Assembly: GCF_018860745.1 (NCBI RefSeq)
Contig: NZ_JAHKPY010000003.1
Location: 756,062-820,061, forward strand
From: Zobellia uliginosa
Lineage (GTDB): Bacteria; Bacteroidota; Bacteroidia; Flavobacteriales; Flavobacteriaceae
Length of the DNA stretch: 64,000 nt
Direction: 5' to 3'
Below are positions 31,168 to 47,435 of this stretch, piece by piece. The notes under the pieces were generated by a model that saw nothing but the letters and a program-made list of their open reading frames with translations, ran no database searches and was not told the origin of the DNA. Within the stretch, counting starts at the first letter, position 1; every line of letters begins with the position of its first letter. The position numbers and the translations under genes are program-made.

Positions 31168-31755
31168 ATGACATTTGTTTTGTCTAGCATGATGGAATTG
31201 GGGAATAAAGCCCCGGATTTTACGCTTCCCGATACGGTTTCGGGAGAACTCATCTCATTGAGTCAAATTAAATCAGAAATTGCTACAGTTGTACTTTTTA
31301 TTTGTAACCACTGTTTGTTTGTTCAACATATCAATTCCAAATTGGTAGAATTGGCCAACAAGTATCAATCGTTGGGCATGCAATTTGTAGCTATAAGCAG
31401 CAATGATATTAAACAATTTCCGCAAGACGACCCTGTTTTTATGGCTCAAATGGCAAAATATAATAAGTATTCTTTCCCGTATTTGTATGATGAATCTCAA
31501 GATGTAGCACTAGACTATGGAGCTGAGAGTAATCCTGATTTATTTGTTTTTGATAAAAGATTGGAGTGTGTTTATACTGGACGTTTTGATATGACCAGAC
31601 CTGGGGTGCAATCTGCCACCGGAAGTGATTTGTCTGCCGCTCTTGACGCCGTGTTAAATGGAGAAGAGGTGGACCCAAATCAATATCCCAGCATGGGAAC
31701 TAGTATTGCATGGAAAAGAGGCACCTCTAAAAACAATTTCAATATGTTTTACTGA
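31168..31755 (+). CDS. Thioredoxin-like/AhpC-TSA protein
   Basis: A 195-residue thioredoxin-fold protein. LGNKAPDFTLPDTVSGE opens an AhpC/TSA-type domain and the redox site is CNHC in LFICNHCLFVQHINSK, the mark of a family of cytosolic thioredoxin-like proteins common in Bacteroidota. No signal peptide is present. The start may instead be the ATG at 31192 (MELGNKAP). Its last bases overlap the end of the convergent AraC regulator gene by seven bases. Confidence 0.87.
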   Translation: MTFVLSSMMELGNKAPDFTLPDTVSGELISLSQIKSEIATVVLFICNHCLFVQHINSKLVELANKYQSLGMQFVAISSNDIKQFPQDDPVFMAQMAKYNKYSFPYLYDESQDVALDYGAESNPDLFVFDKRLECVYTGRFDMTRPGVQSATGSDLSAALDAVLNGEEVDPNQYPSMGTSIAWKRGTSKNNFNMFY

Positions 31756-32666
31756 TTTGCCACGCTCAAATCTGTATTTCTTGGTGTGGAACAAGAGCTG
31801 CGTTTCAATAATATATATTCTCCATTCTTCTTAAATTCCCGAATAGAGGTGCCTATGTAACGCTTAAAAGTTTTGGATAAATGGCTAACATCTGTAAAGC
31901 CTAAATCATCTGCTATTTGAGTTAGGGTAAAATCCGAATTTAATAAGCGTATCTCAACAAGCTTTAGTTTTCCTTTTATTATGTATTCCCTTAGTGATAA
32001 ATTTGTCTGCTTTTTGAAAAATTCACTTACATACGTAGGGGACATCATAAAGACTTCCGCTAGGTTTTCAATTCTTAGGAGTTCTGGGGAATCTATGTTT
32101 TCATTGATGTAGGTCAGCATTTTGGTAATACGGTCATCGGTATTTTTTTGAGGAATTTCATAGAAACTACCTTTTTTTATATTTCTTATTAGAATTTCCG
32201 TAACGGAAATCATCAGGCTCTGAATTAGTGCGAAGGATTTATTTTCACGATCTCTAGATTCCTGCAATATAATAGAGGTTAACTTTTTTAGATACTCTCT
32301 GTCTTTTTCACTTTTAATAATGTCACCCGGCAACTGATTGTAATTGGATAAGATGTACGATGCCTCTTTAAACCACTCATTTCTATCAATAGTAATCTTG
32401 TTCGCATTTTTAAAGAAAGAATCGGTAAACTTTAAAAAGACAAAACGTGTCGGTTTTATGATGGTAAAAGAATGGCATTTTAATGGCGGTAGCAAAAACA
32501 TGCTATTCTTCTCATATGTATAATCGTTGTAGTTGATGCATTGGGTACCTTTTCCTTCCTTTACTAATACCAGCTCAAAAAAATTATTCTTAACGGGTCG
32601 TTGTTTCCAATCCGTCAGTTCAATTTCTTGTATTTCAAAAGGTTTATGTGCTTCTAGTATCTGCAT
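31749..32666 (-). CDS. AraC-family regulator 1 of the accessory cluster
   Basis: A 305-residue regulator with an N-terminal cupin-like sensor domain (FFELVLVKEGKGTQCINYND) and a C-terminal double helix-turn-helix (ENLAEVFMMSPTYVSEFFKK and LTQIADDLGFTDVSHLSKTF). It is divergent from the first yellow-type gene. The shared intergenic region carries a four-box operator of the type AraC dimers bind, so it probably controls that gene and possibly itself. A related regulator is encoded at 41616-42482. Confidence 0.9.
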   Translation of the reverse strand: MQILEAHKPFEIQEIELTDWKQRPVKNNFFELVLVKEGKGTQCINYNDYTYEKNSMFLLPPLKCHSFTIIKPTRFVFLKFTDSFFKNANKITIDRNEWFKEASYILSNYNQLPGDIIKSEKDREYLKKLTSIILQESRDRENKSFALIQSLMISVTEILIRNIKKGSFYEIPQKNTDDRITKMLTYINENIDSPELLRIENLAEVFMMSPTYVSEFFKKQTNLSLREYIIKGKLKLVEIRLLNSDFTLTQIADDLGFTDVSHLSKTFKRYIGTSIREFKKNGEYILLKRSSCSTPRNTDLSVANQ

Positions 32667-32730: not shown

Positions 32731-32798
32731 TAACCTTTAAAAATACATAATTATCCTTTTTCTATACTTCTAAAGAGATACAAGTACAAATATCTTTG
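32731..32798 (+). promoter_or_regulatory. AraC-type operator and promoter P1 (yellow-type gene 1)
   Basis: Four boxes at offsets 0, 12, 21 and 33 from 32731: TAACCTTT, ATACATAA, TATCCTTT, ATACTTCT. The -7 element TATCTTTG follows at 32791. The same architecture is found at 37397, 42580 and 44795. Boxes 1+2 and 3+4 form a 21-bp direct repeat. Confidence 0.75.
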
Positions 32799-32838
32799 CC
32801 TTGTATTTATAAACGAATCAAATTTTAAAAATAACTAT

Positions 32839-33894
32839 ATGAAAAAAGTACTATTGGTATCCGCTTTAGCATCTGTATTTATGATGTGTAAATCACCAAA
32901 CGAGAAAAAAAAGGTGACCGTTCAAGAATCAGCGCCAACCGAAAATGTTTCACAAGAAATAAAAACTGTAGAAACTATTTTTGCTAGTGATACCATAAGA
33001 CCTGGTAATCTAGCTTTAACTGGTGATGGTAGATTATTTGTTACCATGAACCCTATGATGTCACCTGACACTAAAGTTTTTGAAGTGTATAAAAATGGTG
33101 AAAATAAGGCTTACCCAAACGCCGAATATGCGACCGGCGAAAACTCGGTTTTTAAGGCAGTTATTGGAATAAGAGCTGACAGCAATGACAATCTTTGGTT
33201 ATTGGATATGGGAAACAAGCAATTTGTGATTTGGGATACTAAGTCAGAAAAATTAGTTAAAACTATAAAAATTCCGGCAAACGTAGTAAAACCGGCTAGT
33301 TTTTTACAGGATTTTGTGATTGATGAAAAACACAACCGTGTGATAATTGCAGATATGACCCAGGGTGATTTAAAAAGTGCGCCTGAGCCTGCATTTATCG
33401 TAATCAATACCGAGAATGGGGAAGCTAAGAGAATGGCACAGAGTCATCGATCATTGATGCCAGAAATGGAAGGTGGTTTCGCGCTAAATCCAATAGCTAT
33501 TGATCCACTATATAACTGGGTATATTTTGGAGCCTTACACGGCAACACCATGTATAGGGTACCTGCAGCTAACTTTGGTAGCGATGAAGAACTAGTAAAT
33601 TCTATAGAAACATATGGTAAAAAATCATACTCAGACGGCATGGCAGTAGATGCTGTCGGAAATGTGTATGTAACTAATGTAACAGATGGGGAAATAGGGC
33701 TATCTACTAAAGAAGCTTATGTTCCTTTAGCAAAAATTCCTGAAGGGCAATCTTGGCCAGATGGTCTTTATGTAGCTAACGATGGATTTTTATACGCTAC
33801 AATTGATCAATTAAATAGAATACCACCTATGAACAATGGAAAAGATGATAGTGAAGGCCCTTATTTAGTAGTTAAAACAGAATTAGTAAAGTAA
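32839..33894 (+). CDS. Yellow/major royal jelly-type beta-propeller lipoprotein 1
   Basis: A 351-residue protein with a lipobox (VFMMC, Cys17) and a six-bladed propeller of the MRJP/yellow family. Typical segments are GIRADSNDNLWLLDMGNKQ, LQDFVIDEKHNRVIIAD, YFGALHGNTMYRVPA and SWPDGLYVANDGFLYAT. Insect relatives include yellow-type proteins linked to dopachrome conversion; bacterial members are uncharacterised. It is anchored to a membrane, probably facing the periplasm. It forms a unit with the small monooxygenase-like gene 17 bases downstream and is led by operator P1. A paralogue lies at 35194-36291. Confidence 0.87.
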   Translation: MKKVLLVSALASVFMMCKSPNEKKKVTVQESAPTENVSQEIKTVETIFASDTIRPGNLALTGDGRLFVTMNPMMSPDTKVFEVYKNGENKAYPNAEYATGENSVFKAVIGIRADSNDNLWLLDMGNKQFVIWDTKSEKLVKTIKIPANVVKPASFLQDFVIDEKHNRVIIADMTQGDLKSAPEPAFIVINTENGEAKRMAQSHRSLMPEMEGGFALNPIAIDPLYNWVYFGALHGNTMYRVPAANFGSDEELVNSIETYGKKSYSDGMAVDAVGNVYVTNVTDGEIGLSTKEAYVPLAKIPEGQSWPDGLYVANDGFLYATIDQLNRIPPMNNGKDDSEGPYLVVKTELVK

Positions 33895-33911
33895 TTTATA
33901 AACAAAACATC

Positions 33912-34211
33912 ATGAGAAAATCATATTTGACAATAATAGCAAGAATTTTAGTAAAAGAGGAGCATAGAGAGTTTGTAAAAGCAGAATTACTTAAACTGTT
34001 AGATGTTACAAGAGCTGAGGAAGGTAATATTAGTTATGACCTTCACCAAGACAATGAAAATCCTAATTTTTTCTTATTTCATGAAAAGTGGGTTAATCGT
34101 GAGTTATGGCAAAAACATATGGATAATAAATATTTGGCCCATTATATGAAAGTAACTGATGGCAAAGTGGAAGAGTTTATATTAAATGAAATGTCGGAAA
34201 TAGGGAACTAA
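33912..34211 (+). CDS. Antibiotic biosynthesis monooxygenase (ABM)-like protein 1
   Basis: A 99-residue dimeric alpha/beta-barrel protein of the ABM/YgiN group. IIARILVKEEHREFVKAEL, EEGNISYDLHQDNENPNFF and FLFHEKWVNRE are the usual strand-helix elements. YgiN-like members act as quinol monooxygenases or small-molecule oxygenases without a cofactor; others degrade haem or have no known role. It is cotranscribed with yellow-type gene 1 and closely related to the ABM protein at 36994-37293. A terminator follows. Confidence 0.88.
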   Translation: MRKSYLTIIARILVKEEHREFVKAELLKLLDVTRAEEGNISYDLHQDNENPNFFLFHEKWVNRELWQKHMDNKYLAHYMKVTDGKVEEFILNEMSEIGN

Positions 34212-34220
34212 TAAATTTTT

Positions 34221-34256
34221 AAACACACGCAAGTAATACTGCGTGTGTGTTTATTT
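34221..34256 (+). terminator. Intrinsic terminator after ABM gene 1
   Basis: AAACACACGCA pairs with TGCGTGTGTGTTT around an AGTAATAC loop, followed by a T-rich tail. It closes the yellow-ABM unit. Confidence 0.85.
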
Positions 34257-34281
34257 AAAACTAAATTTTTTTCAGTAACCA

Positions 34282-34315
34282 GATTTAGTTGTACAGATTT
34301 AATTGTACAGATTTA
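34282..34315. repeat. Tandem 14-bp repeat upstream of the betaine-binding-type gene
   Basis: GATTTAGTTGTACA is followed directly by GATTTAATTGTACA and then GATTTA: two units of 14 bp plus a partial third. It lies 86 bases upstream of the next start codon and could be a regulator-binding array. Confidence 0.6.
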
Positions 34316-34400
34316 GGTAAGTAAATTGTCTTTCTTTTAAAAGCTACTTCTATCTAGATTAAAGTTGCAATTTCATGTTTCATTTTTAAAATTATAACAG

Positions 34401-35180
34401 ATGTCAAAATCAATAAATTTAGGAGTAACCGATTTGTCTTTTCATCGTATAGCGGCCTCTTTGGTAGCCAACACACTGGAAGAAATAGGTTTTACCGTAA
34501 AACGCACATATTCACCTCACGAAGAGAATTTTGAGCGATTAAAAACAGGCGATGTAGATATATTGGCTTCGGCATGGTTGCCTTCCAGTCACGGTATTTA
34601 TAAAAATGAGGTTGAAAAAGTAGTTCCTTTAGTAGAATTAGGACTTCACTATAAACCGTATGCTCTTTGGGGAGTACCAGATTATGTGCCAGAAAAAGAG
34701 GTTTCAAAGATTGCAGATTTGCTGAAACCAAATGTAGTATCAAAAATTAAAAAGGATATTCAAGGGATAAACCCAGGTGCTGGAATTACGCGTTTTTCTA
34801 TTCAGATGATGAATGATTACGGACTTAATGACGCAGGATATTCATTTCATACCGGTACTGAAGAAGATTGCTTCAGTGCTTTTGAAAATGCGGTTGAAAA
34901 GAAAGAATGGATAATTATCCCTCTTTGGAAACCTCAATTTTTACATTATAAATACAATATAAGAGAACTAAAAGAACCTAAAGGTCTATTAGGTAGTGTT
35001 GACAAAGCTGTCTTATTGCTACGCAAAGACAAAGAAAATATGTTCAATAAGAAGCATCTTCAAAAATTAGATGGTTTACAATTCACTAATGACATTATTG
35101 CAGAATTAGACTATAAGGTTTCACGAGAAGGTAAAAATATAGATGAAGTAACAAAGCGGTGGTTGAAAAATCACCATTAA
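34401..35180 (+). CDS. OpuAC-type betaine-binding protein without a signal peptide
   Basis: A 259-residue type 2 periplasmic-binding fold of the OpuAC (glycine betaine/proline betaine) family. Landmarks are LGVTDLSFHRIAASLVANTL, GDVDILASAWLPSSHG, GINPGAGITRFS and WIIIPLWKPQFLHYKY. The tryptophans in SAWLP and PLWKP are candidates for the aromatic cage. The protein starts MSKSINLGVTD with no signal peptide or lipobox, and no permease or ATPase gene is near, so it is probably cytosolic and not part of an importer. It begins a unit with yellow-type gene 2. Confidence 0.85.
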   Translation: MSKSINLGVTDLSFHRIAASLVANTLEEIGFTVKRTYSPHEENFERLKTGDVDILASAWLPSSHGIYKNEVEKVVPLVELGLHYKPYALWGVPDYVPEKEVSKIADLLKPNVVSKIKKDIQGINPGAGITRFSIQMMNDYGLNDAGYSFHTGTEEDCFSAFENAVEKKEWIIIPLWKPQFLHYKYNIRELKEPKGLLGSVDKAVLLLRKDKENMFNKKHLQKLDGLQFTNDIIAELDYKVSREGKNIDEVTKRWLKNHH

Positions 35181-35193
35181 AAAAGAACACACA

Positions 35194-36291
35194 ATGAAAA
35201 AACATATATTTATTTTGACTACAATTTTAACAGGCATGACGGCAAATGCACAAACAGAAGCTGAAGTTTTTACCACAACTGATGAAGCCGTGGGGAACAT
35301 CACATTTACTAATAAGGGCGATTTGGTATACAGCCAACATCCTTTTTTTGAACCTGTAATCAGAGTTAAGATTATGGATGCCAAAACTAAGGAGAGTAAA
35401 CCATTCCCCAATGAAGCATGGAATACACCTAGAGATACAGACGATAATTATTTAAGCAATGTATTAGGTATTAGAAATGATGAAAACGGAATTATTTGGA
35501 TGCTAGATATGGCACAGCGTAATAATGTTACTCCAAAAATTGTCGGTTGGAACATGATTACCAATCAATTGGAACGTATCTACTATTTACCTGAATCATC
35601 TGCGCCAAAAGAATCACAACCAAATGATATGGTTGTAGATACTAAAAACGGATATTTTATTATAGCGGATGAAGGTATTGGTAATGGGGGAAATGGTAGT
35701 AAAGGGGCTTTTATTGTAGTTGATATGAAAACCGGTAAAACACGACGTGTTTTAGAAGGTACACGTACAACTTCACCAGAAAATACTCCTACGGTTATTA
35801 ATGGTGAACATTTAGCTGTTGACGGTAAAGATTTGCTGATTGGTAATGACGGTATAACCGCCGATGCCAATTTTGAGTATATCTATTACGGCCCATTGAA
35901 CGGAACTAAAATTTATAGAGTTAAAACGGTTGATTTGGTAAACGAAAATTTATCCGAAGATGAGCTCGACAGTAGAATTGAAACGTATTCTGAAAAGCCT
36001 AATAATGGCGGTATGAGTATCGATAAAGACGGTAACCTATATCTAACTGCTATAGAAACAAATAGAGTCGCTGTGGTACTAGCAAAAGATAGAAGTGTAA
36101 AAACTATGGCCCAAGACGAAAATATGGTTTGGCCGGATGGTGTAAGCTATAATCATGTAGATGGTTACATGTATGTATCTGCAGCTCAGGTAAACAGAGG
36201 TTCTGCCTTCAATGAAGGTAAAAGCGTTGCCACCAAACCCTTTTATATCTTTAGATTTCAACCTTTTGTAGAGGGCGTTTCATTTAGATAA
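35194..36291 (+). CDS. Yellow/major royal jelly-type beta-propeller protein 2
   Basis: A 365-residue exported protein with a signal peptide ending MTANAQ and an MRJP/yellow propeller (GIRNDENGIIWMLDMAQRN, NDMVVDTKNGYFIIADEG, YYGPLNGTKIYRVKT, WPDGVSYNHVDGYMYVSA). It is a paralogue of the lipoprotein at 32839-33894 but soluble in the periplasm or secreted. It sits 13 bases after the betaine-binding-type gene and 11 before alkB. Its C terminus VATKPFYIFRF...VEGVSFR is duplicated as a stub at 39706-39771. Confidence 0.86.
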   Translation: MKKHIFILTTILTGMTANAQTEAEVFTTTDEAVGNITFTNKGDLVYSQHPFFEPVIRVKIMDAKTKESKPFPNEAWNTPRDTDDNYLSNVLGIRNDENGIIWMLDMAQRNNVTPKIVGWNMITNQLERIYYLPESSAPKESQPNDMVVDTKNGYFIIADEGIGNGGNGSKGAFIVVDMKTGKTRRVLEGTRTTSPENTPTVINGEHLAVDGKDLLIGNDGITADANFEYIYYGPLNGTKIYRVKTVDLVNENLSEDELDSRIETYSEKPNNGGMSIDKDGNLYLTAIETNRVAVVLAKDRSVKTMAQDENMVWPDGVSYNHVDGYMYVSAAQVNRGSAFNEGKSVATKPFYIFRFQPFVEGVSFR

Positions 36292-36302
36292 TTAGAAAAG
36301 AG

Positions 36303-36932
36303 ATGGATTTATTTAGTCAAACAGACCTATTTTTCACAAATGAAGTCCGTAAAATAGAATTTGATCTACCAGGAGCCGATGTTACTTTATTTGAGAATTT
36401 CTTTAGTTTAGAAGAAAGTAATAAGTTGTATGCTAGCTTACTTCAAAATACACCTTGGCAGCAAGAGCAAATTACCATTCACGGTAAATTGGTAGATTAC
36501 CCTAGGTTGACCGCTTGGTACGGAGATGCTGACAAAGACATTAAATACACGAATACAAAAAGTAAAATGCATTTATGGAATGATGATTTACTTTTCATTA
36601 AAGAACGTATAGAGAAGGAGGTAGCTATTAAATTTACACGCTGTTTGCTCAATTATTATCGCGACGGAAAAGATAGCGTAGACTGGCATCAAGATTATAA
36701 AGGAGAACAAAGAAAAAATACGGTCATTGCTTCTGTTACCTTTGGTGCAACCAGACCCTTTCAATTAAAACATGTATCAAGAACAGATTTAAAACGATTA
36801 GATATTCCATTGGCAAATGGTAGCCTTCTATTGATGCAAGGCGCTACCCAGGAAAATTGGAAGCATAAAATACCGAAGACCGCAAAACAGATTTCCCCAA
36901 GAATTAACCTAACCTTTAGATGGATCGGTTAA
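36303..36932 (+). CDS. alkB: AlkB-like 2OG-Fe(II) dioxygenase
   Basis: A 209-residue oxidative demethylase of the AlkB family. Iron ligands are His and Asp in DWHQDYKGEQ and a distal His in NWKHKIPK, and the 2-oxoglutarate-binding arginines are in PRINLTFRW. The substrate-lid segment YPRLTAWYGD is typical. AlkB repairs 1-methyladenine and 3-methylcytosine in DNA or RNA, and etheno adducts made by lipid-peroxidation aldehydes. Its place inside an oxidoreductase cluster is consistent with alkylation or aldehyde damage. Confidence 0.92.
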   Translation: MDLFSQTDLFFTNEVRKIEFDLPGADVTLFENFFSLEESNKLYASLLQNTPWQQEQITIHGKLVDYPRLTAWYGDADKDIKYTNTKSKMHLWNDDLLFIKERIEKEVAIKFTRCLLNYYRDGKDSVDWHQDYKGEQRKNTVIASVTFGATRPFQLKHVSRTDLKRLDIPLANGSLLLMQGATQENWKHKIPKTAKQISPRINLTFRWIG

Positions 36933-36993
36933 TTTATCCGCTATCAATCTTTACTTTTATAATTCGAATTTTTGAACCAATTTAAAGCATCTT

Positions 36994-37293
36994 ATGAAAA
37001 AATCTTATTTAACCTTAGTGGTACATATTTTAGTAAAAGAAGAATTTAGAGAAGAAATAAAAGCCGAGTTGCTAAAACTTGTTAGTCCCACTAGAGGAGA
37101 AGAAGGTTGTATTGCTTACGACTTACATCAAGATAACGATAACCCCAATCTGTTCTTATTTCACGAAAAATGGGTGAATCAAGATTATTTGACAAAACAT
37201 TCGCAAAGTGACCATATTGCAGCCTATAGACTTGCTTCTAAAGATAAGCTTGAGAATGTTTCATCTTATAAAATGACAGAGCTTACCAATTAG
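36994..37293 (+). CDS. Antibiotic biosynthesis monooxygenase (ABM)-like protein 2
   Basis: A 99-residue ABM/YgiN-like protein sharing long near-identical stretches with the one at 33912-34211 (YDLHQDN, LFLFHEKWVN, the KAELLKL segment). The pair arose by duplication together with the yellow-type genes. It follows alkB after 61 bases and probably ends the unit that begins at 34401. Confidence 0.87.
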   Translation: MKKSYLTLVVHILVKEEFREEIKAELLKLVSPTRGEEGCIAYDLHQDNDNPNLFLFHEKWVNQDYLTKHSQSDHIAAYRLASKDKLENVSSYKMTELTN

Positions 37294-37396
37294 AATTGTA
37301 ATTATAAAGGCTTAACATTAAATTAATGTATTAAAAACCGGTAATTTTACCTATAACAAGCTTCTTTTGGCAATATTTTAAGATTTTACCATTTAA

Positions 37397-37465
37397 AAAC
37401 CTCTATTTATACCTTATTCTCCTTTTTTTGTACTCTGTTTAGAGTGTTTGTTACAATTATCTTTG
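37397..37465 (+). promoter_or_regulatory. AraC-type operator and promoter P2 (nitroreductase unit)
   Basis: Boxes at offsets 0, 12, 21 and 33 from 37397: AAACCTCT, ATACCTTA, TCTCCTTT, GTACTCTG. The -7 element TATCTTTG lies at 37458, 28 bp after the last box. Same architecture as P1, P3 and P4. Confidence 0.78.
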
Positions 37466-37502
37466 TTTTAAAATAAGAATCAACGGTATTAAATATAAAA
37501 AG

Positions 37503-38162
37503 ATGAATTTACAAGAAACTATAGATTGGAGATACACAACAAAAGAATACAATACAAGCAAGAAAATATCTGATGCAGATATGACTAAAGTCAAAAACTT
37601 GTTGAGAATGAGTCCTTCTAGTGTAAACCTTCAACCTTGGCATTTTATAGTTACCGAAACTGCAGAAGGTAAAGCACGTATAGCAAAAGGAACTCAAGGT
37701 TTTTTTAGCTTCAATGAGCCAAAAGTAACTAATGCCTCTGCTGTTGTATTGTTTTGTTCTAAAATTGATGCGAATGATGCATACTACCAGCACATTGCAG
37801 ACACTCAAGATAAAGATGGAAGATTTCCTAATGAGGATATTAAAAATGGATTTTTAGGGGCTGTAAAAGCTTTTACAGGGATTCATAAATACGATTTAAA
37901 AGATTTACAGCACTGGATGGAAAAGCAAGTCTATCTTAACATTGGAAATTTTTTATTAGGCGTTGCAAGTTTAGGTATTGATGCTACACCCATGGAGGGT
38001 ATTGATGTAAAAGCTTTAGATGAAGAATTCGGATTAAGAGAAAAAGGATTCACCTCTTTAGTTGCTGTTTCTTTAGGATATAGAGCGGAATCTGATTTCA
38101 ACTCTCCTGATAAAACGCCAAAATCTAGATTAGCGGAAAGTGAAATTTTTACGATAATATAA
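37503..38162 (+). CDS. Nitroreductase-family oxidoreductase, NfsB-like
   Basis: A 219-residue FMN enzyme: WRYTTKEYNTSKKI at the N terminus, MSPSSVNLQPWHFIVT for flavin binding and ATPMEGIDVKALDEEFGLREKG near the C terminus. It probably reduces quinones, enals or nitroaromatics with NAD(P)H. It is the first gene of a unit with an MDR oxidoreductase (20 bases on) and a cupin gene, under operator P2. A paralogue is in the TetR operon. Confidence 0.92.
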   Translation: MNLQETIDWRYTTKEYNTSKKISDADMTKVKNLLRMSPSSVNLQPWHFIVTETAEGKARIAKGTQGFFSFNEPKVTNASAVVLFCSKIDANDAYYQHIADTQDKDGRFPNEDIKNGFLGAVKAFTGIHKYDLKDLQHWMEKQVYLNIGNFLLGVASLGIDATPMEGIDVKALDEEFGLREKGFTSLVAVSLGYRAESDFNSPDKTPKSRLAESEIFTII

Positions 38163-38182
38163 TTTTAAAAATTCTAATACAG

Positions 38183-39190
38183 ATGAAAGCAATAGGATAC
38201 AAAGAGAACCTTCCAATTGACAATATAAAGTCTTTGCAAGATGTAGAATTGGAAACTCCAAAAGCTACGGGAAGAGATATTTTAGTAGAAATAAAAGCTA
38301 TTTCTGTAAATCCTGTAGATTATAAAATTAGAGCCAACAGACCTTCTCCAGATGATAATTGGAGTGTAATTGGTTGGGATGCAACGGGAATTGTAACTGC
38401 TATTGGAGAAGATGTGACTCATTTTAACGTTGGGGATGAAGTTTGGTATGCCGGTGATTTAACACGACAAGGAAGTAATGCCGAATATCAAGTTGTAGAT
38501 GAGCGTATTGTGGGTAAAAAACCTTCAAGTTTATCTTATGCTGAAGCTGCTGCATTACCATTAACCACACTTACAGCCTATGAAATGTTGTTTGATCGAT
38601 TAGAGGTATCTAAAGACGATGCCAATAAATCTATTTTGGTTATCGGTGCTGCCGGTGGTGTAGGTTCTATTTTGGTGCAATTGGCTAAAAAACTGACGAA
38701 GTTGAACATTATAGGTACGGCTTCTCGTGAAGAAACTACGTCTTGGTTAAAAGAATTAGGTGCAGACACGGTTATTAACCACAAAAATAAATTGAGCGAA
38801 GAGTTCGAGAAATACAATTTACCGGCTCCAGAATATGTAGTAAGCTTAAATGCTACGGAACACCACGTAGATGAAATTGCTAAACTAATTAAACCTCAAG
38901 GGAAATTCGGATTTATAGACGATCCAAAATCGCTAAATGTAATGCCTTTTAAAGGTAAAGCGGTTTCTACGCATATAGAGTTAATGTTTACGCGCTCAAT
39001 GTTTCAGACCGAAGACATGATTGAGCAACATAACATCTTAAATAAAGCTTCTGAATTGATAGATAACGGAACCGTAAGAACTACATTAGGTGAAAACTTC
39101 GGAACTATAAATGCTGAAAACCTTAGAAAAGCACATGCTTTCTTAGAAACAGGCAAAGCAAAAGGTAAAATTGTTTTGGAGGGGTTTTAG
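38183..39190 (+). CDS. Zinc-free MDR oxidoreductase (quinone reductase/YogA-like)
   Basis: A 335-residue medium-chain reductase. VNPVDYKIRANRP and the GWDATGIVTAIGEDV segment form the GroES-like domain, and VIGAAGGVGSILVQLAKKL binds NADPH. The catalytic zinc ligands of alcohol dehydrogenases are absent, so it belongs to the quinone oxidoreductase/enone reductase branch. It is translationally close (20 bases) to the nitroreductase gene and shares promoter P2. Confidence 0.9.
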   Translation: MKAIGYKENLPIDNIKSLQDVELETPKATGRDILVEIKAISVNPVDYKIRANRPSPDDNWSVIGWDATGIVTAIGEDVTHFNVGDEVWYAGDLTRQGSNAEYQVVDERIVGKKPSSLSYAEAAALPLTTLTAYEMLFDRLEVSKDDANKSILVIGAAGGVGSILVQLAKKLTKLNIIGTASREETTSWLKELGADTVINHKNKLSEEFEKYNLPAPEYVVSLNATEHHVDEIAKLIKPQGKFGFIDDPKSLNVMPFKGKAVSTHIELMFTRSMFQTEDMIEQHNILNKASELIDNGTVRTTLGENFGTINAENLRKAHAFLETGKAKGKIVLEGF

Positions 39191-39220
39191 ACTCAATGAA
39201 TCAAATAAAACACATGTAAA

Positions 39221-39694
39221 ATGAATTTCAAGTCAATTATAGCAGCAGTAGCTGTAACAGTATTTTTTGCTAGCAATACAGCAAACGCTCAAGTAAACAC
39301 CATAGATTCTGTAGCAACCTCAAAAGTGCAACATTTTAATTTTGATGATATGGAATCTGAAACTATTGGAAAAGGTATCAAACGTAAATGGTTTCACGGT
39401 GAAAAAGGACAAATGACCATTTTCGATTTAGAGAAAGATGCACATATTCCTTGGCACCAACACCCTAACGAACAGATTACTTACATCATGTCTGGGAAGG
39501 TAAAAATCAAGACTATAATAGATGGTAAAGAGGAATTGGTAATTGTCTCTGGTGGTGAAGTAATTGTATTTCCTGAGAATGTACCGCACGAATTTTGGGC
39601 ATTGGAAAAAACGGTGGATTTAGATGTCCACGTTCCGGTACGTCAAGACTGGTTGAGTAAAGAATTACCGGAATATTTAAAGAAAAGTGAATAA
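39221..39694 (+). CDS. Exported cupin-domain protein
   Basis: A 157-residue protein with a signal peptide ending NTANAQ and a single cupin barrel. Metal ligands are visible in IPWHQHPNEQITYIMSG (His, His, Glu) and FPENVPHEFWA (His). Periplasmic cupins of this kind may be dioxygenases, isomerases or metal-bound sensors. It is the third gene behind P2, followed by the stub of a yellow-type gene and a terminator. Confidence 0.87.
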   Translation: MNFKSIIAAVAVTVFFASNTANAQVNTIDSVATSKVQHFNFDDMESETIGKGIKRKWFHGEKGQMTIFDLEKDAHIPWHQHPNEQITYIMSGKVKIKTIIDGKEELVIVSGGEVIVFPENVPHEFWALEKTVDLDVHVPVRQDWLSKELPEYLKKSE

Positions 39695-39705
39695 GATGAA
39701 AAAGT

Positions 39706-39771
39706 GTAGCGACCAAGCCTTTTTATATTTTCAGGTTTAAACTTATTGTTGAAGGCGTTTCTTTTAGATAA
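39706..39771 (+). pseudogene. C-terminal stub of a third yellow/MRJP-type gene
   Basis: Read in frame the bases give VATKPFYIFRF, then KLI, then VEGVSFR and a stop. The intact protein at 35194-36291 ends VATKPFYIFRF, QPF, VEGVSFR. About 18 of 21 residues match while codons differ, so this is the diverged 3' end of another copy, joined directly to the end of the cupin gene. The rest of that copy has been deleted. Confidence 0.85.
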
Positions 39772-39800
39772 GGCTTAGTTAAATACTGAACAACCAGTCT

Positions 39801-39830
39801 AAAAGCCACTTTTTTTAAGTGGCTTTTTCA
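39801..39830 (+). terminator. Intrinsic terminator after the cupin gene and stub
   Basis: AAAAGCCACTT pairs perfectly with AAGTGGCTTTT around TTTT, with a T-tract following. Confidence 0.9.
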
Positions 39831-40029
39831 TTTTAACGCTTTCTTGAATGTGTAAAGCAAACTGAAGTATTCAATTTTTAAGCGGTAGACTTTGTAAGAT
39901 TAGTACGATGAATATCAGATAATCGATATCATTTATAAAAACGGCGGTGAATTGTTTCGGAAAGCCCTTCAATATATTAGTAATTACTTTCCGAAGGTTT
40001 TACCTTTGCATGCTACAGAAAATGATATC

Positions 40030-41583
40030 ATGCAAGAGACTCAATTTGAACTACAAGAAAAGAAGACTGAAAAAGAACTTTATAGCTACCAGCAAGGTGC
40101 CATTCAGCGCATATTTGAAAAGTTCGATAATGAAAGAGATGATTATCATCTTTTATATCAACTACCAACAGGAGGTGGAAAGACCGTAATTTTTTCTGAA
40201 ATGGTCCGCCAATACCTTAAAAATCACTCGAAAAAGGTTTTGGTAATGACACACCGTGTAGAGCTCTGTAACCAGACTTCTAAAATGCTCACCAGTTTTG
40301 GAGTGGTTAATAAAGTAGTCAACAGCAAAGCCAATTTAGATGACCATGAACGTTACAACTGTTATGTTGCCATGGTAGAAACACTAAATAATAGGCTTAA
40401 CGATGGTATATTGGATATTTCGGATGTTGGCCTGGTCATTGTGGATGAGGCTCATTATAATTCCTTTACAAAACTGTTCAAGTTTTTCGAAAATTCTTTT
40501 ATTCTTGGCGTTACCGCTACGCCTTTAAGCTCCAATAAGGAGCTGCCCATGAATGGTAATTATGATGAGCTAATTCCTGGGGAATCCATAGAAAACTTAA
40601 TAGAAAACGACTTTCTGGCCAGGGCTGAAACGTATCAATATGATATGGGGTTAACCTCTTTGGAAGTAGGTTCCAATGGAGACTATACCGTTAAATCTTC
40701 TTCTGACCTTTATACGAGCCCTTCCATGTTGAATAAATTATTGGAAGCTTATACTTTACATTCCAAGGGTAAAAAAACGTTGATATTCAACAATGGTATA
40801 GAAACCTCAATTCAAGTTTATCATACCTTCAATGATGCCGGTTTGCCCATTATGCATTTGGATAATAACGCTACGAAAAAACAACGAAAACAAATATTGA
40901 ATTGGTTTCATGAAACTCCAAATGCCATACTAACTTCTGTAAGTATTTTAACGACTGGTTTTGATGAACCCACCATAGATACCATCATCCTTAACAGGGC
41001 CACAAAATCGTTAACCTTGTACTACCAAATGATTGGTAGGGGTTCTCGTGTGCTAAACAACAAATCTAAATTCACCGTCATAGATCTTGGTAATAATATA
41101 TATCGTTTTGGACCTTGGGGAGCGGACCTGGATTGGGAGACCATTTTTAAATCTCCAAATTTCTACATAGATCGTATAAAGGACGATGAGGATATTGAAG
41201 GTTCTTTTAAACATGAGTTGGCCGATGACATTCGTGAAGAATTTTCAAAATCTAAGGATACTTACCTAGATATTAAAGCTGTATATAAGGAAGCGACCTT
41301 TTCCGGAGAATCTTCTAAAGTGGTATTGGAAAAATCCATTGAACAACATGCCTATATCTGTATAGAAAACAGTGAAGATGTGTATGATGCGCTTGCGTTG
41401 GCAAAATTACTTAAAGATGATATAGATAATAGGATACAAGTTTATGGCAAGTGCATAAGTAAAAGCACCTATAATTTTATCAATTGGCTGAAAATGGATT
41501 ACCAAAAAAAGCTTAATGCCTATCTTAGAGAAAACTTTGATACCGTTTTTGAGCAGATTCACGGGCATCTGCCGGAAGATTAG
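40030..41583 (+). CDS. DEAD/DEAH superfamily 2 helicase
   Basis: A 517-residue helicase-like ATPase of the type III restriction-subunit/SSL2 group. Motif I is PTGGGKTVIF, motif II IVDEAHYN, motif III TATPLS and motif VI YYQMIGRGSRV; an ISILTTGFDEP segment is also present. The C-terminal 140 residues match no nuclease I recognise. It would unwind or translocate on nucleic acid. The frame can be extended to TTG at 39952; the ATG at 40030 starts close to the first conserved helix. It is followed after 32 bases by AraC regulator 2. Confidence 0.87.
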   Translation: MQETQFELQEKKTEKELYSYQQGAIQRIFEKFDNERDDYHLLYQLPTGGGKTVIFSEMVRQYLKNHSKKVLVMTHRVELCNQTSKMLTSFGVVNKVVNSKANLDDHERYNCYVAMVETLNNRLNDGILDISDVGLVIVDEAHYNSFTKLFKFFENSFILGVTATPLSSNKELPMNGNYDELIPGESIENLIENDFLARAETYQYDMGLTSLEVGSNGDYTVKSSSDLYTSPSMLNKLLEAYTLHSKGKKTLIFNNGIETSIQVYHTFNDAGLPIMHLDNNATKKQRKQILNWFHETPNAILTSVSILTTGFDEPTIDTIILNRATKSLTLYYQMIGRGSRVLNNKSKFTVIDLGNNIYRFGPWGADLDWETIFKSPNFYIDRIKDDEDIEGSFKHELADDIREEFSKSKDTYLDIKAVYKEATFSGESSKVVLEKSIEQHAYICIENSEDVYDALALAKLLKDDIDNRIQVYGKCISKSTYNFINWLKMDYQKKLNAYLRENFDTVFEQIHGHLPED

Positions 41584-41615
41584 TCGACTTAATTCTCCGT
41601 TGAAAAGAAAACACT

Positions 41616-42482
41616 ATGGCGCGTACTATCATTGAAAATATTGTAATTGCGAAATACAAGGACCAAACATTTTTTGAGTTTTGTAAATACACGACTATTC
41701 GTTTTTTTGAAATTGTATATTTTGAAAAAGGAACAGGAACTATTAAAATCAATGGTAATACTGTACCCTATACTTCTAACAGTGTTTTTGTTTTTATTCC
41801 TGACGATATTTACATCGTAAACCCTGATTCTGCGACCACTACAGTGGCTATAAAATTTTTAAAGAGCTTTTTTAGAAAAACATCTGCGCTAAACGAAACC
41901 TTACCAGTTAATGATTGGTTTCGAAAAATCGAAGAAATACTAAATAGCGAAAGTCATCAGCTTCGTGAAATGCAATTTGCAACCGAATCTGACCGGTCAC
42001 ACTTAGTATCTCTTATTAACATGGTTGCGACTGAATATATGAGCGAGCAAACTTTTGATATTTTCATTATTCAAAATTCCGTATCGGTTATTCTACATCT
42101 TATTGCCAGAAATATTCAATTCATTAATACGGCAGATACGGTAAAGAATGTGAAGTCATCTAAAATTCAACAAATCATTAACTACATTCACGCCAATATT
42201 TACAATTCCGAATTGCTTACCACCAAAAGTCTGGCAGAGGAATTTCATATGTCAGATAATTATATGAGTGAATATTTTAAAAAGCATACTGATGTTTCAT
42301 TAAAGAAATACATTATCAACTACAAGTTAAAACTTGTAGAAACCCGATTAAAGTACACAGACATGCAATTTTCAGAAATAGCATTGGAATTGGGCTTTAC
42401 AGATTCTAGTCATTTGAACAAGACTTTCCAAAGCTATAAAGGGATGACTATCGGTGCTTATAAGGCTACTATATCGGCATAA
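41616..42482 (+). CDS. AraC-family regulator 2 of the accessory cluster
   Basis: A 288-residue regulator related to the one at 31749-32666. It has a cupin-like N-terminal domain (RFFEIVYFEKGTGTIKING) and a C-terminal double helix-turn-helix (KSLAEEFHMSDNYMSEYFKK and FSEIALELGFTDSSHLNKTF). It lies about 100 bases upstream of operator P3, which drives the crotonase unit. One or both AraC proteins are expected to recognise P1-P4. Confidence 0.9.
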   Translation: MARTIIENIVIAKYKDQTFFEFCKYTTIRFFEIVYFEKGTGTIKINGNTVPYTSNSVFVFIPDDIYIVNPDSATTTVAIKFLKSFFRKTSALNETLPVNDWFRKIEEILNSESHQLREMQFATESDRSHLVSLINMVATEYMSEQTFDIFIIQNSVSVILHLIARNIQFINTADTVKNVKSSKIQQIINYIHANIYNSELLTTKSLAEEFHMSDNYMSEYFKKHTDVSLKKYIINYKLKLVETRLKYTDMQFSEIALELGFTDSSHLNKTFQSYKGMTIGAYKATISA

Positions 42483-42579
42483 GCTTTACATAAAATATTT
42501 TAAGTCAGTATTAGTAATGGTTCAAAGTAATCGCTATTACTACTGGCTTTCTTATTTCATCTACTCAGAAAAATACCAT

Positions 42580-42648
42580 TTACCTCTTTTTTTACCAAAA
42601 CCACTTTGTTTTATACCCATTTTAAGCTGGTGTCCCTAAATAACTTTG
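42580..42648 (+). promoter_or_regulatory. AraC-type operator and promoter P3 (crotonase unit)
   Basis: Boxes at offsets 0, 12, 21 and 33 from 42580: TTACCTCT, TTACCAAA, CCACTTTG, ATACCCAT. The -7 element TAACTTTG lies at 42641, 28 bp after the last box. Third member of the P1-P4 set; its third box is the weakest. Confidence 0.75.
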
Positions 42649-42693
42649 TACTGTAATTAATACAGAATAAATATCAACCAAAAACATACTATT

Positions 42694-43539
42694 ATGGACT
42701 ACAAGAATTTTCAAACATTTACGGCAGAACAAAAAGGCGGAATTTTAAAAATTGATATCAACTTTGGACCAGTAAACGTACAAGGACAAGAAATGTTAGC
42801 AGATTTAAGCAGCCTTTGTTTACGGTTAGAAAGAGATAGAAGCGTAAAAGTTGTGGTTTTTGAATCTTCAAATCCAGGATATTGGGTATGTCATTATGAT
42901 ACGAACCTATTAAAAGATATGTCTACAGAAGCTGTTCCAAGAAATGAAGTGCAATTATTAGATCTTCAGTCGGTATTGGAAAGACTGAGCAAGGTACCAC
43001 AAGCAACTATTGCGAAAATTGAAGGTTTTGCAAGAGGAGGAGGAAATGAAATGGCGTTGGCGTTAGATATGCGTTTTGCAGCTAGAGGAAAGGCTAAGTT
43101 CATGCAGATGGAAGTTGGCATGGGAATTTTACCCTGTGGTGGTGGAGCGTCTCGTATGGCTAGACAAACAGGATTAGGAAAAGCACTAGAAATTATTCTA
43201 GGAGCAAGAGATTGGGATGCCGATGAAGCTGAAAAATTCGGGACTATAAACAAAGCCTTAGACGCAGATGAAATTGGAGCTTATGTAGATGCCTTAGCAC
43301 AACGTATATCTCAATTTCCAGCAGATTCTATTGCCGCTAGTAAACGTGCAGTATACGCGTCCATAGATTTACCAATAAAAGAAGCTTTAAAAGAAGAAGC
43401 ATACCAATTGTTTCAAGCTACGAGTAGAACTCCTGCAATAAAAAGATTTGCCTATGCAGATGATAACGGAGCACAGTTTGACCATAATAACCAAAAGAAT
43501 TGGGAGCAAATGGTGATGGATATTCAAGAAGTGAATTAA
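42694..43539 (+). CDS. Enoyl-CoA hydratase/isomerase (crotonase)-family protein
   Basis: A 281-residue crotonase-fold protein. The oxyanion-hole loop is IEGFARGGGNEMALALDM and the active-site Glu equivalent may be in FMQMEVGMGILPCGGGASRM. The canonical CoA-binding and catalytic residues are only partly conserved, so the substrate may not be a standard fatty enoyl-CoA. Closely related proteins in Bacteroidota and Proteobacteria accompany oxidoreductases like the ones here. It is driven by P3 and followed by an MDR gene after a repeat-filled 160-base gap. Confidence 0.88.
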   Translation: MDYKNFQTFTAEQKGGILKIDINFGPVNVQGQEMLADLSSLCLRLERDRSVKVVVFESSNPGYWVCHYDTNLLKDMSTEAVPRNEVQLLDLQSVLERLSKVPQATIAKIEGFARGGGNEMALALDMRFAARGKAKFMQMEVGMGILPCGGGASRMARQTGLGKALEIILGARDWDADEAEKFGTINKALDADEIGAYVDALAQRISQFPADSIAASKRAVYASIDLPIKEALKEEAYQLFQATSRTPAIKRFAYADDNGAQFDHNNQKNWEQMVMDIQEVN

Positions 43540-43662
43540 GGCGCTGAGCGCCATACGCTTTGCGCCAAGCGCATTTCGCATATCGCTTTTCAATTTTTAT
43601 GTAGAGCGCATAGCGCACAGCGAACAACGAACAACGAACAACGAACAACGAACAACGAAAAA
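43540..43662. repeat. Palindromes and heptanucleotide tandem repeat
   Basis: GGCGCTGAGCGCC (43540-43552) directly follows the stop codon and is a palindrome around one base. GCGC-rich imperfect repeats continue to about 43620. Five perfect copies of CGAACAA (43621-43655) and a degenerate sixth follow. Slippage at the heptamer could change the distance between the crotonase and MDR genes. Confidence 0.85.
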
Positions 43663-43700
43663 CAATTAAATATTAACGAAATAAATAAAGAAGAAAGATT

Positions 43701-44684
43701 ATGAAAGCAATGTTATTAAACAGTTACGGAGAAAATTCAAATTTTGAAGTTTCAGAAATAGCAAAACCAGCTGTAAAAGTAAATCACGTTTTAGTGAAAA
43801 TAGCGGCATCTAGTGTCAATACTATTGATATGATGATTAAAAATATGGGGACAGATTTACCTTTGTCTCCTGCTACTCCAGCTTTATTAGGTATGGATTT
43901 TTCCGGAGTAATTGAAGCTGTTGGAGAAGGTGTAGAGGGTTATGCTGTAGGCGATGAAGTATACGGTTGTGCTGGTGGATTAGCAGATTTACCTGGAACA
44001 TTGACAGAATACATTGTAGCCGATAGTAGTTTAATTGGTCACAAACCAAAAGACTTGACTATGCGCGAAACTGCAGCTTTACCTTTAGTTGCAATTACAG
44101 CTTATGAAGGTTTGACAAGAGCAGGCGTAAAAGCAGGTCAAAAAGTATTAATTCATGGTGGTTCTGGCGGTGTTGGTCATTTAGCGGTACAACTGGCTAA
44201 ATATTTTGGAGCAGAAGTTTTTGCTACTGGTACAGGTGACAAACAAAAAGCAATTGTTGAAAAATTCGGGGCAACCTTTATCGATTTTAAAACTGAAAAA
44301 GTAGCAGATTATACAGCAAAATATACCGATGGTGGTTTTGATGTTGTTTTTGATACCGTTGGTGGTCCAAACCTGACAAACTCTATGGAAGCAGTTGCCC
44401 TAAACGGTCATATTTCCACAACGGTTTCCTTGTTGGAAATCGATTTAACTCCGTTGCACTTTAAAGGAGCATCATTACACGTGGTCTTTATGTTGATTCC
44501 GATGTTACATAACTTCAAAAGAGAAAATCACGGTAGTATTTTAGAAAAATTAGCTGAAATTTCTAACGAAGGTCATTTAACTCCGATTGTTGATGAAAAT
44601 CAATTTTCATTAGAGCAAGTAGGTGATGCTTACGCACACTTAGCTAGTGGTACAGCTATTGGTAAAGTTGTGGTTGAAAACTAA
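43701..44684 (+). CDS. MDR oxidoreductase (quinone/enone reductase type)
   Basis: A 327-residue zinc-free medium-chain reductase. SSVNTIDMMIKNMG and LGMDFSGVIEAVGEGVEGY form the N-terminal domain, and IHGGSGGVGHLAVQLAKYFG binds NADPH. VLVKI and GKVVVEN are family-typical ends. It resembles quinone oxidoreductases and crotonyl reductase-like enzymes. It is second in the P3 unit and separated from the crotonase by the repeat region; an intrinsic terminator follows. Confidence 0.9.
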   Translation: MKAMLLNSYGENSNFEVSEIAKPAVKVNHVLVKIAASSVNTIDMMIKNMGTDLPLSPATPALLGMDFSGVIEAVGEGVEGYAVGDEVYGCAGGLADLPGTLTEYIVADSSLIGHKPKDLTMRETAALPLVAITAYEGLTRAGVKAGQKVLIHGGSGGVGHLAVQLAKYFGAEVFATGTGDKQKAIVEKFGATFIDFKTEKVADYTAKYTDGGFDVVFDTVGGPNLTNSMEAVALNGHISTTVSLLEIDLTPLHFKGASLHVVFMLIPMLHNFKRENHGSILEKLAEISNEGHLTPIVDENQFSLEQVGDAYAHLASGTAIGKVVVEN

Positions 44685-44756
44685 ATAATAGTAAATAAAA
44701 TATGTAGTAAGATTAGAGTTGCAGGCTCTAAACATGTCGATTAATATGTACTGTTG

Positions 44757-44783
44757 AATGCCCCAGAAATGGGGCATTTTTTT
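44757..44783 (+). terminator. Intrinsic terminator after the MDR gene
   Basis: AATGCCCCA pairs with TGGGGCATT around GAAA, followed by a run of T. It insulates the P3 unit from P4, which starts 12 bases later. Confidence 0.94.
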
Positions 44784-44794
44784 GCTTTAAAAAA

Positions 44795-44863
44795 AAACCT
44801 TGAAATTTACCTAAACAACCGTTTTTACTACCAAAAAATTACTGCTGTCTCATACTACCTTTG
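44795..44863 (+). promoter_or_regulatory. AraC-type operator and promoter P4 (oxygenase unit)
   Basis: Boxes at offsets 0, 12, 21 and 33 from 44795: AAACCTTG, TTACCTAA, CAACCGTT, CTACCAAA. The -7 element TACCTTTG lies at 44856, 28 bp after the last box. Fourth member of the P1-P4 set. Confidence 0.78.
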
Positions 44864-44927: not shown

Positions 44928-45890
44928 ATGAAAACAATAACAAATACAAATGCACTCGCACAAGCTCGTGCGCTTAAACTACCAACTCGCGAAGCTTCAC
45001 TAAATCGTGATCCTTCTGTGTCACAATTTTGGAATAGTAACCGAGAGTTACTTGAAGATGCTTGGAGCGAATGGGAAATTGAAAACAAAGACGGTTTGCT
45101 AGTTCCTGATGAAACCTTACTTGATCCGAAATTAAGAAAAGCTATAAACGATGCTTGGAAAAATCCAGAAAAGGAAAATGCTGTTGCTGATTTATGGGAA
45201 GAGATTATTCCTGGGGTATATTCTGCTCAGTTTTTTGATTTGGAACGTCTAGCAGATTTTCGTAAATATCTAGAAGCTACGGTAAATTCTGAAATTCCCA
45301 GACGTGCACCTTATGGCATTCAGTTGAATCGTTATGGCGTTATGTTAGACCCACGTTCAGAAGGTCATCTTGCTGCACCCAATTTTCAGGCATTTTACAA
45401 CGAAATCATGGATCGCTATATGCGTCCGATCGCCCGTTTATTACTAGGTACTTATGGCTACGATAACCAAACCTTTGGTTTTTCTATTCAGTACAATCCA
45501 GATAAGGATAAAGATTTGCATGCCCATACGGATGCTTCTGCAGCTACCTTGAATATCAATATTAACTTACCTGAAGAAAAATTTACAGGTTCACAAGTCG
45601 ATTTTCATGATACGTCTACAAGAAAGGTTGTTCAAACTATCTTTGAACCCGGCAAGGCAATAATTCATACTGGCAAAGTACCTCATGCTACCCATCCAAT
45701 TACTAGCGGACAACGTAGTAACTTGGTTGTATGGTTGTATGGAGATCGTATGCAAATACCACGAGGGGGTGCAAGTAGTTATGGTAGTGTTGATAATTCA
45801 ACATCAAAAGTTGTTGCAGCAGAAAATATTACGGCTCGCGAGCGTTGGAGTTTACCAGAAGGTCCCAAAGATACCTTTGCACCGTTTTAA
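44928..45890 (+). CDS. 2OG-Fe(II) oxygenase-like protein
   Basis: A 320-residue protein with a double-stranded beta-helix oxygenase domain in its second half. Iron ligands are the HxD of LHAHTDASAATLNI and the distal His in KVPHATHPI, and the 2-oxoglutarate arginine is in GQRSNLVVWL. The N-terminal 100 residues are helical and not recognised. It would hydroxylate a small molecule or protein. It is first in the P4 unit, 74 bases before an SDR gene. Confidence 0.87.
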   Translation: MKTITNTNALAQARALKLPTREASLNRDPSVSQFWNSNRELLEDAWSEWEIENKDGLLVPDETLLDPKLRKAINDAWKNPEKENAVADLWEEIIPGVYSAQFFDLERLADFRKYLEATVNSEIPRRAPYGIQLNRYGVMLDPRSEGHLAAPNFQAFYNEIMDRYMRPIARLLLGTYGYDNQTFGFSIQYNPDKDKDLHAHTDASAATLNININLPEEKFTGSQVDFHDTSTRKVVQTIFEPGKAIIHTGKVPHATHPITSGQRSNLVVWLYGDRMQIPRGGASSYGSVDNSTSKVVAAENITARERWSLPEGPKDTFAPF

Positions 45891-47431: not shown

Positions 47432-47435
47432 AGCT

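Follow-up and report, generated by a model that had tools for sequence, protein, structure and literature searches.

In the 64-kb window analyzed here, which is the whole stretch taken from contig NZ_JAHKPY010000003.1 of Zobellia uliginosa (positions 756,062 to 820,061; all coordinates below are window positions), four promoters, P1 to P4, share a site that is very probably the operator of AraC-family proteins and would define a small regulon. The window codes for two such proteins, AraC1 (31749..32666, reverse strand, 305 amino acids) and AraC2 (41616..42482, forward strand, 288 amino acids), which the preliminary description of this DNA had called related and which are 36% identical. We interpret the sites as tandem AraC-type operators because they form a 21-bp repeat, keep a fixed distance to the -7 promoter element, are conserved beside AraC1 and AraC2, and are nearly absent where both regulators are missing.

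Probable operator sites and promoter geometry

An exact search of both strands for WWACCT-N7-TAC-N8-C-N9-TAC gave only four positions in the window, 32731, 37397, 42580, and 44795, all on the forward strand, with no fifth match on either strand. These are the sites that the preliminary description had placed upstream of the genes at 32839, 37503, 42694, and 44928, and the bases that it gave as invariant (WWACCT at offset 0, TAC at 13 to 15, C at 24, and TAC at 34 to 36) are present in all four. The box spacing of 0/12/21/33 in its title has to be corrected, as the boxes start at 0, 13, 21 to 24, and 34. The P1 operator (32731..32767) lies between the divergent genes of AraC1 and of an MRJP/SMP-30-like protein (MRJP1), and operators flanking AraC1 are also found in related loci. 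The P2 operator (37397..37433) precedes a nitroreductase gene, the P3 operator (42580..42616) lies between AraC2 and an enoyl-CoA hydratase-like (ECH) gene, and the P4 operator (44795..44831) precedes an OGFOD2-like gene. The -7 element TAnnTTTG follows, as first reported, at offset 60 in P1 (TATCTTTG, 32791..32798) and at offset 61 in P2 (TATCTTTG, 37458..37465), P3 (TAACTTTG, 42641..42648), and P4 (TACCTTTG, 44856..44863), always on the forward strand. The whole genome (4,863,267 bases, 15 contigs) contains eight exact matches, six forward and two reverse, of which four fall in this 12-kb stretch, while the pattern read backwards, used as a control, has two. The four remaining matches are inside open reading frames of 353 to 423 codons, with no TAnnTTTG within the 110 bases examined for each.

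Across 186 distinct sites from the window and its relatives, the operator is a 21-bp direct repeat of a 16-bp half-site, AAACCT-N7-TAC. The second half-site is looser (nnnCCT-N7-TAC), with only CC (or C) of the ACCT strongly kept, and the strongest columns are A2 C3 C4 T5, T13 A14 C15, C24 C25, and T34 A35 C36. Self-similarity of the sites is maximal at a shift of 21 (correlation of 0.80, next best 0.32), so the four boxes can be read as two half-site copies 21 bp apart. A tandem direct-repeat operator, with copies about two helical turns apart and next to the promoter, is a trait of AraC/XylS regulators that is seen here in both the 21-bp repeat and the fixed -7 spacing. Upstream of an AhpC/TSA-like gene there is one further half-site (AAACCTTTATTTATAC, 30978..30993, forward strand), with a whole-operator score of only 4.1 and no second half-site beside it in the window. 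Fuller operators precede this gene in some relatives (e.g., L034 and L039), seven of eight such sites being without a matching -7 element, and the lone half-site is perhaps a decaying or differently used operator.

As the -7 element was absent from the search matrix, it provides an independent test of the sites. TAnnTTTG is found at offset 59 to 62 in 163 of 194 sites from 99 loci (offset 61 in 132 sites, 60 in 27, 59 in 2, and 62 in 2), and the second half-site ends 23 to 24 bp before it. Between operator and -7 element, the columns of the 186 distinct sites show no evident conserved -33 element. Assuming that TAnnTTTG begins at -12, the operator would span approximately -73 to -37.

On the other side of the divergent arrangement, AraC1-flanking operators start 52 to 53, 60 to 65, or 73 to 74 bp before the AraC1 start codon in 84 of 86 cases. 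A TAnnTTTG on the opposite strand, suitable for AraC1 itself, stands 36 to 38 nucleotides from the operator at 39 of the 86 sites and elsewhere at 4; the AraC1 leader of the window has no exact TAnnTTTG. Since this opposite-strand element stays 36 to 38 nucleotides from the operator, leader length seems to account for the 10-bp steps between 63 and 73, with the distance from operator to promoter fixed. The layout suggests that AraC1 may regulate its own gene from the shared divergent operator.

Conservation and co-occurrence with AraC1 and AraC2

The sites had been expected to be kept ahead of orthologous genes, and so they are: the exact pattern is present in 10 of 11 related regions fetched around AraC genes (31 occurrences, most of them ahead of genes orthologous to those of the window). 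In the eleventh region, L040, there is no match, and the AraC protein is only 30% identical. A sequence-only model built from 32 sites was searched in 12 whole genomes, taking the best 150 candidates in each. The 41 matches with E<=0.01 all lie within a few kilobases of AraC1 or AraC2, most of them being the training sites themselves, and the first match away from the AraC genes has an E value of 0.0136. We therefore rejected a genome-dispersed regulon, as no match at E<=0.01 was found away from the AraC genes in the 12 genomes.

An AraC1 search of a public genome collection found 115 relatives, and the best 80 that were kept range from Maribacter, Cellulophaga, Winogradskyella, Tenacibaculum, Arenibacter, Flavobacterium, and others to metagenome sequences labeled Saprospiraceae. 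After exclusion of three Zobellia loci, whose genomes had already been used for the matrix, 77 non-Zobellia loci with an AraC1 orthologue were left. Seventy-five of them have a site with a matrix score of at least 18 (138 sites), whereas the reversed matrix gives 5 such sites and 10 column-shuffled matrices give a mean of 0. The two loci below this score are L143, which contains the exact pattern with a -7 element at offset 60 despite a score of only 9.1, and L149, whose contig begins 65 bases before AraC1. In the full set, 97 of 99 loci have at least one site. The preliminary description had also proposed a scan with a matrix of the four window sites only. At scores of at least 18 this matrix is clean, with 141 hits in 74 of the 77 loci against 6 hits in 4 loci for its reverse, while a threshold of 12 brings in much noise (283 hits against 131).

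In a set of 199 genomes from the family, the motif (E<=0.001) occurs in 18, AraC1 in 10, AraC2 in 13, and either regulator in 17. The motif is present in 15 of the 17 genomes with AraC1 or AraC2 versus 3 of the 182 without either, and in these three the proper offset lacks a -7 element and the 11 kb examined contain none of the cluster genes. In both genomes counted as misses (G194 and G225), the AraC gene is in fact flanked by an operator, one scoring 23.3 without an exact -7 element (region L160) and the other 32.0 with one (region L157). In seven genomes with AraC2 and no AraC1, an operator directly follows AraC2 in all seven regions read, and in four genomes with AraC1 and no AraC2, the operator is divergent from AraC1. 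Genome G210, where the site beside AraC1 scores 18.6, has three motif matches on contigs other than that of AraC1, each with a -7 element at offset 61. They precede a nitroreductase-family gene (28% identical to that of the window), a gene whose product begins much like the DUF4437 protein of L126, and an OGFOD orthologue (78%), so clustering is usual and not universal. To judge from sequence, each regulator is associated on its own with this operator design, and so are the target genes, also where they are unlinked.

Two operator classes can be told apart. All 112 leave-one-locus-out trials distinguished AraC1-flanking operators (n = 86) from operators between AraC2 and ECH (n = 26), with columns 25 (C versus T/A), 12, and 28 discriminating best. 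All 38 nitroreductase-gene sites that do not flank AraC1 are AraC1-like, as is P2, which was held out of class training and scores +23.9. P3 scores -40.1 as an AraC2-type site, but it was, like P1, in the training set, so the class scores of these two prove nothing. The 19 OGFOD-gene sites, P4 included (+16.5), have a median class score of -1.6, 7 of them being AraC1-like, and two lie in loci with AraC2 only (L151 and L155). P1 and P2 thus look like AraC1 sites and P3 like an AraC2 site, with the class of P4 uncertain.

Proposed regulation and alternative explanations

Both proteins have the C-terminal double helix-turn-helix of the AraC/XylS family, as they exceed the Pfam HTH_18 cut-off of 33.6 bits (AraC1, 59.1; AraC2, 63.7) and also match HTH_AraC (56.8 and 46.4 bits, respectively). 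The AraC1 profile matches the DNA-binding domains of AraC, MarA, and SoxS, and AraC1 is the only other match to AraC2 at E<=1e-30 in the genome (40 of 42 candidates scored). AraC2 matches the model of the N-terminal cupin-like domain for ligand binding and dimerization (AraC_binding, 27.1 bits, cut-off of 21.1), while the N-terminal part of AraC1 has no Pfam match. The AraC1 structure model, of moderate quality (predicted local distance difference test [pLDDT] score of 67) and used for fold comparison only, resembles the regulatory domains of AraC, RhaR, and BgaR, the alignments being full-length with a large root mean square deviation; the AraC2 model (pLDDT of 51) was too poor and was not used. 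C43, C64, and H65 are kept by all 80 AraC1 orthologues and C292 by 75 of them, and C23 is found in 28 of 28 AraC2 orthologues (translated matches with internal stops were dropped). Many further residues of AraC1 are as invariant as C43 and C64. The AraC1 copy of G210 (L161:7695-8570) has one in-frame TAA, while operators of the same design persist elsewhere in that genome.

We propose that a set of oxidoreductase and detoxification genes would be driven by a pair of paralogous AraC-family activators, whose operators share one design but are separate for each protein. The two DNA-binding domains of one dimer would lie in tandem along the same face of the DNA, in the manner of AraC on its two proximal sites, and the end of the half-site 23 to 24 bp before the -7 element would be the expected place of the upstream contact of the sigma factor. 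The bound, signal-loaded dimer could then recruit RNA polymerase to a promoter with a -7 element and without a recognizable -33 element. AraC1 would probably act on P1, P2, and its own divergent promoter, and AraC2 on P3 and perhaps P4, with cross-binding possible. We also consider it likely, with less confidence than the operator assignment itself, that the regulators are activators and not repressors. A far more speculative idea, to which we give only a small chance, is that AraC1 and AraC2 are a duplicated electrophile-sensing pair of marine Bacteroidota, in which AraC1 would sense, for instance, algal quinones or halogenated phenols through C43 and C64 and would control itself and its targets from one operator lying at fixed distances between two divergent promoters, AraC2 being a copy with its own operators and a second signal.

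A possible though doubtful alternative is one undivided regulon, with both proteins binding all four operators interchangeably, whether redundantly, in competition, or as heterodimers. The core bases of P1 to P4 are identical, P4 is intermediate in class, and the segments that we take to be the recognition helices are very alike in AraC1 and AraC2 (SPTYVSEFFKK/SDNYMSEYFKK and FTDVSHLSKTF/FTDSSHLNKTF). However, the two operator classes are separable without error, and such operators accompany each regulator also in genomes where its paralogue was not found. The preliminary description had turned the scattered cluster into a regulon, and while its shared operator stands, the regulon is probably not undivided. 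Repression, in which the operator would be bound without signal and released by it, is improbable: AraC itself represses by looping without arabinose (PMC4760080), but here the operator is upstream of the -7 element, not over it, and it ends at the polymerase-adjacent position of activators, at a fixed distance in 163 of 194 sites.

It is very unlikely that the motif belongs to another regulator traveling with the clusters, such as the LysR-type protein coded at 29797. The cluster genes do co-occur with the motif, and the LysR-type gene lies 2 kb upstream in the window, but we rejected it as its relatives are found in only 9 of the 105 loci searched, the named ones being Zobellia, and the motif is far wider. 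Moreover, loci with only AraC1 and loci with only AraC2 share the motif next to the AraC gene, AraC1 and AraC2 are the sole regulators among 20 window proteins scanned (the genes of other loci were scanned in part), and the 21-bp tandem repeat has the form predicted for the AraC-family rhamnose regulators of Bacteroides (PMC3870299). A chance likeness of promoter DNA has a negligible probability. It is true that the sites are AT-rich and that low thresholds make the four-site matrix noisy, but chance and low complexity are ruled out by the genome counts, the model search, the reversed and shuffled controls, and the conservation, together with the regulator co-occurrence and the -7 spacing. An RNA element was discarded too, since the motif precedes the -7 element and should lie outside the transcript.

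Several points weigh against AraC-type activation by two regulators with separate operators. P1 is the weakest of the four sites by score (29.4 versus 44.0 to 47.4), and 31 of 194 sites have no exact -7 element in the examined range, one of them being cut by the end of its locus; among them are seven of the eight before the AhpC/TSA-like gene. The missing -33 element is weak evidence for activator dependence, as none was identified in Flavobacterium johnsoniae promoters generally (PMC7366714). All counts are inflated by relatedness, since the loci are related by descent and are not independent, and two of the 99 repeat genomes already counted (L158 with L123 and L161 with L133). As no more than 12 candidates per genome were scored for AraC1 and for AraC2, the absences behind the co-occurrence figures are not certain. 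Last, the class comparison sets many different promoters against one orthologous promoter, and descent could mimic specificity.

Putative target genes and comparison with known systems

All putative targets are on the forward strand. MRJP1 (32839..33894; Pfam MRJP, 43.4 bits) is the predicted P1 target and would share an operon with the Pfam ABM-domain protein ABM1 (33912..34211), judging from a gap of 17 bp. P2 precedes an oxygen-insensitive NAD(P)H nitroreductase (37503..38162; NF008275, 295.7 bits, cut-off of 227), probably in an operon with a zinc-type alcohol dehydrogenase family protein (38183..39190; TIGR02817, 531.7 bits, cut-off of 284.05). P3 is followed by the ECH-like gene (42694..43539; Pfam ECH_1, 107.3 bits) and, further downstream, by a quinone-oxidoreductase-like MDR protein (ADH2, 43701..44684), whose best model, TIGR02824, stays at 186.8 bits, below the cut-off of 296.8. 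The P4 target has a weak OGFOD2-like match (44928..45890; PF25238, 21.7 bits, below the cut-off of 31). P4 may also control the genes downstream (46838..49322) of a KefF-like flavoprotein (46838-47431; 209.3 bits, cut-off of 210) and a KefC-like antiporter (47436-49322; 596.8 bits, cut-off of 752), neither of which passes its specific model; the antiporter passes the broader CPA2 model (248.8 bits, cut-off of 238.3).

The first gene after the 194 sites is most frequently of the nitroreductase family (60), followed by ECH (27), OGFOD-like (20), ABM1 (18), MRJP1 (12), AhpC/TSA (8), ADH1 (8), 2-oxoglutarate (2OG) oxygenase (6), others (6), and unassigned genes (29). The nitroreductase-family targets form two groups, approximately 80 to 90% and 25 to 31% identical to that of the window. 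Ten proteins picked from the unassigned were an aldo/keto reductase, an aldehyde dehydrogenase, a nitroreductase, two DUF1330 proteins, two BCCT transporters, a bestrophin, a DUF4437 protein, and a SnoaL-like protein. With about an even chance, the targets serve defense against reactive electrophiles, e.g., quinones or aldehydes, a role that the nitroreductase, the quinone-reductase-like and alcohol dehydrogenases, the ABM proteins, and perhaps the KefF/KefC-like pair could fill, as Kef systems protect against electrophiles (PMC10224563). Against this plausible theme, it is a reading of family names, and the BCCT transporter, OpuAC, 2OG-oxygenase, and MRJP genes fit it poorly. Acrylate or dimethylsulfoniopropionate use, suggested by the betaine-type transporter, OpuAC, cupin, and crotonase-like genes, was rejected, as no listed model supports it.

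Other features of the neighborhood can be mentioned. An OpuAC (betaine-type binding) domain protein (34401-35180) starts with MSKSINLGVTDLSFH and, having no evident signal peptide (judged by eye), is perhaps cytoplasmic; in some relatives, the same operator is followed by the gene of a BCCT betaine transporter. A 14-bp tandem repeat, CAGATTTAGTTGTA, is present in 2.6 copies (34280-34316) between ABM1 and the OpuAC gene. The GCG/GCGC-rich stretch between the ECH-like and ADH2 genes (43541-43663), ending in 6.7 copies of the 7-bp unit ACAACGA (43617-43663), looks like a small repeat insertion. A 2OG-Fe(II) oxygenase (36303-36932; Pfam 2OG-FeII_Oxy_2, 115 bits) reaches only 23.6 bits with the curated AlkB model (cut-off of 267), and a RadD-like helicase at 39952 has 108 bits (cut-off of 720). 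The LysR-type regulator gene (29797-30678) seems to be a genus-level neighbor of the cluster.

The AraC1/AraC2 system offers a sharply defined operator and promoter geometry for a Bacteroidota AraC-family pair, kept across many marine Flavobacteriaceae and also in Saprospiraceae-labeled sequences. With it, the dependence of -7-only promoters on an activator becomes directly testable, as does the way in which duplicated regulators diverge together with their sites. If the electrophile reading is true, the system would bear on how algae-associated bacteria sense reactive algal chemicals. We found no description of the AraC1/AraC2 pair and its operator in the literature searched, most subscription papers being outside its scope, and nothing usable on the Zobellia cluster.

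In Escherichia coli, the araBAD operators have a 21-bp tandem spacing, araI2 overlaps the -35 element, and the regulator gene is divergent. As proposed for our window, an AraC-family protein there uses two adjacent half-sites, araI1 and araI2, the promoter-proximal one recruiting RNA polymerase (PMC4760080). Here, in contrast, the half-site sequence is different, the promoter has a Bacteroidota -7 element, there are no arabinose genes, and the regulators are two paralogues. RclR, a hypochlorous acid sensor, is an AraC-family regulator of redox defense activated by oxidation of two cysteines (PMC7464077), which recalls the invariant C43 and C64 of AraC1. However, the RclR cysteines are at positions 21 and 89 and its target genes are others; AraC2 has only 20.7 bits with the RclR model (cut-off of 400), and AraC1 is not among the matches listed at E<=1e-3. 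Within the genus, the AraC-family protein CgrA (ZGAL_3159) of Zobellia galactanivorans positively regulates its own cluster, as its deletion indicates; that cluster is for the use of a carbohydrate, carrageenan, and the part of the paper at hand describes no operator (PMC5698469). The likeness to RhaR of the Bacteroides rhamnose regulon, for which the predicted direct repeat is also of 21 bp (PMC3870299), is one of repeat form, and the genes regulated are others. Regulators that bind direct repeats are few, and most of them are AraC-family proteins (PMC9723621). The operator architecture is thus known for AraC proteins, and the AraC1/AraC2 regulon proposed to be built on it was not found in the literature searched.

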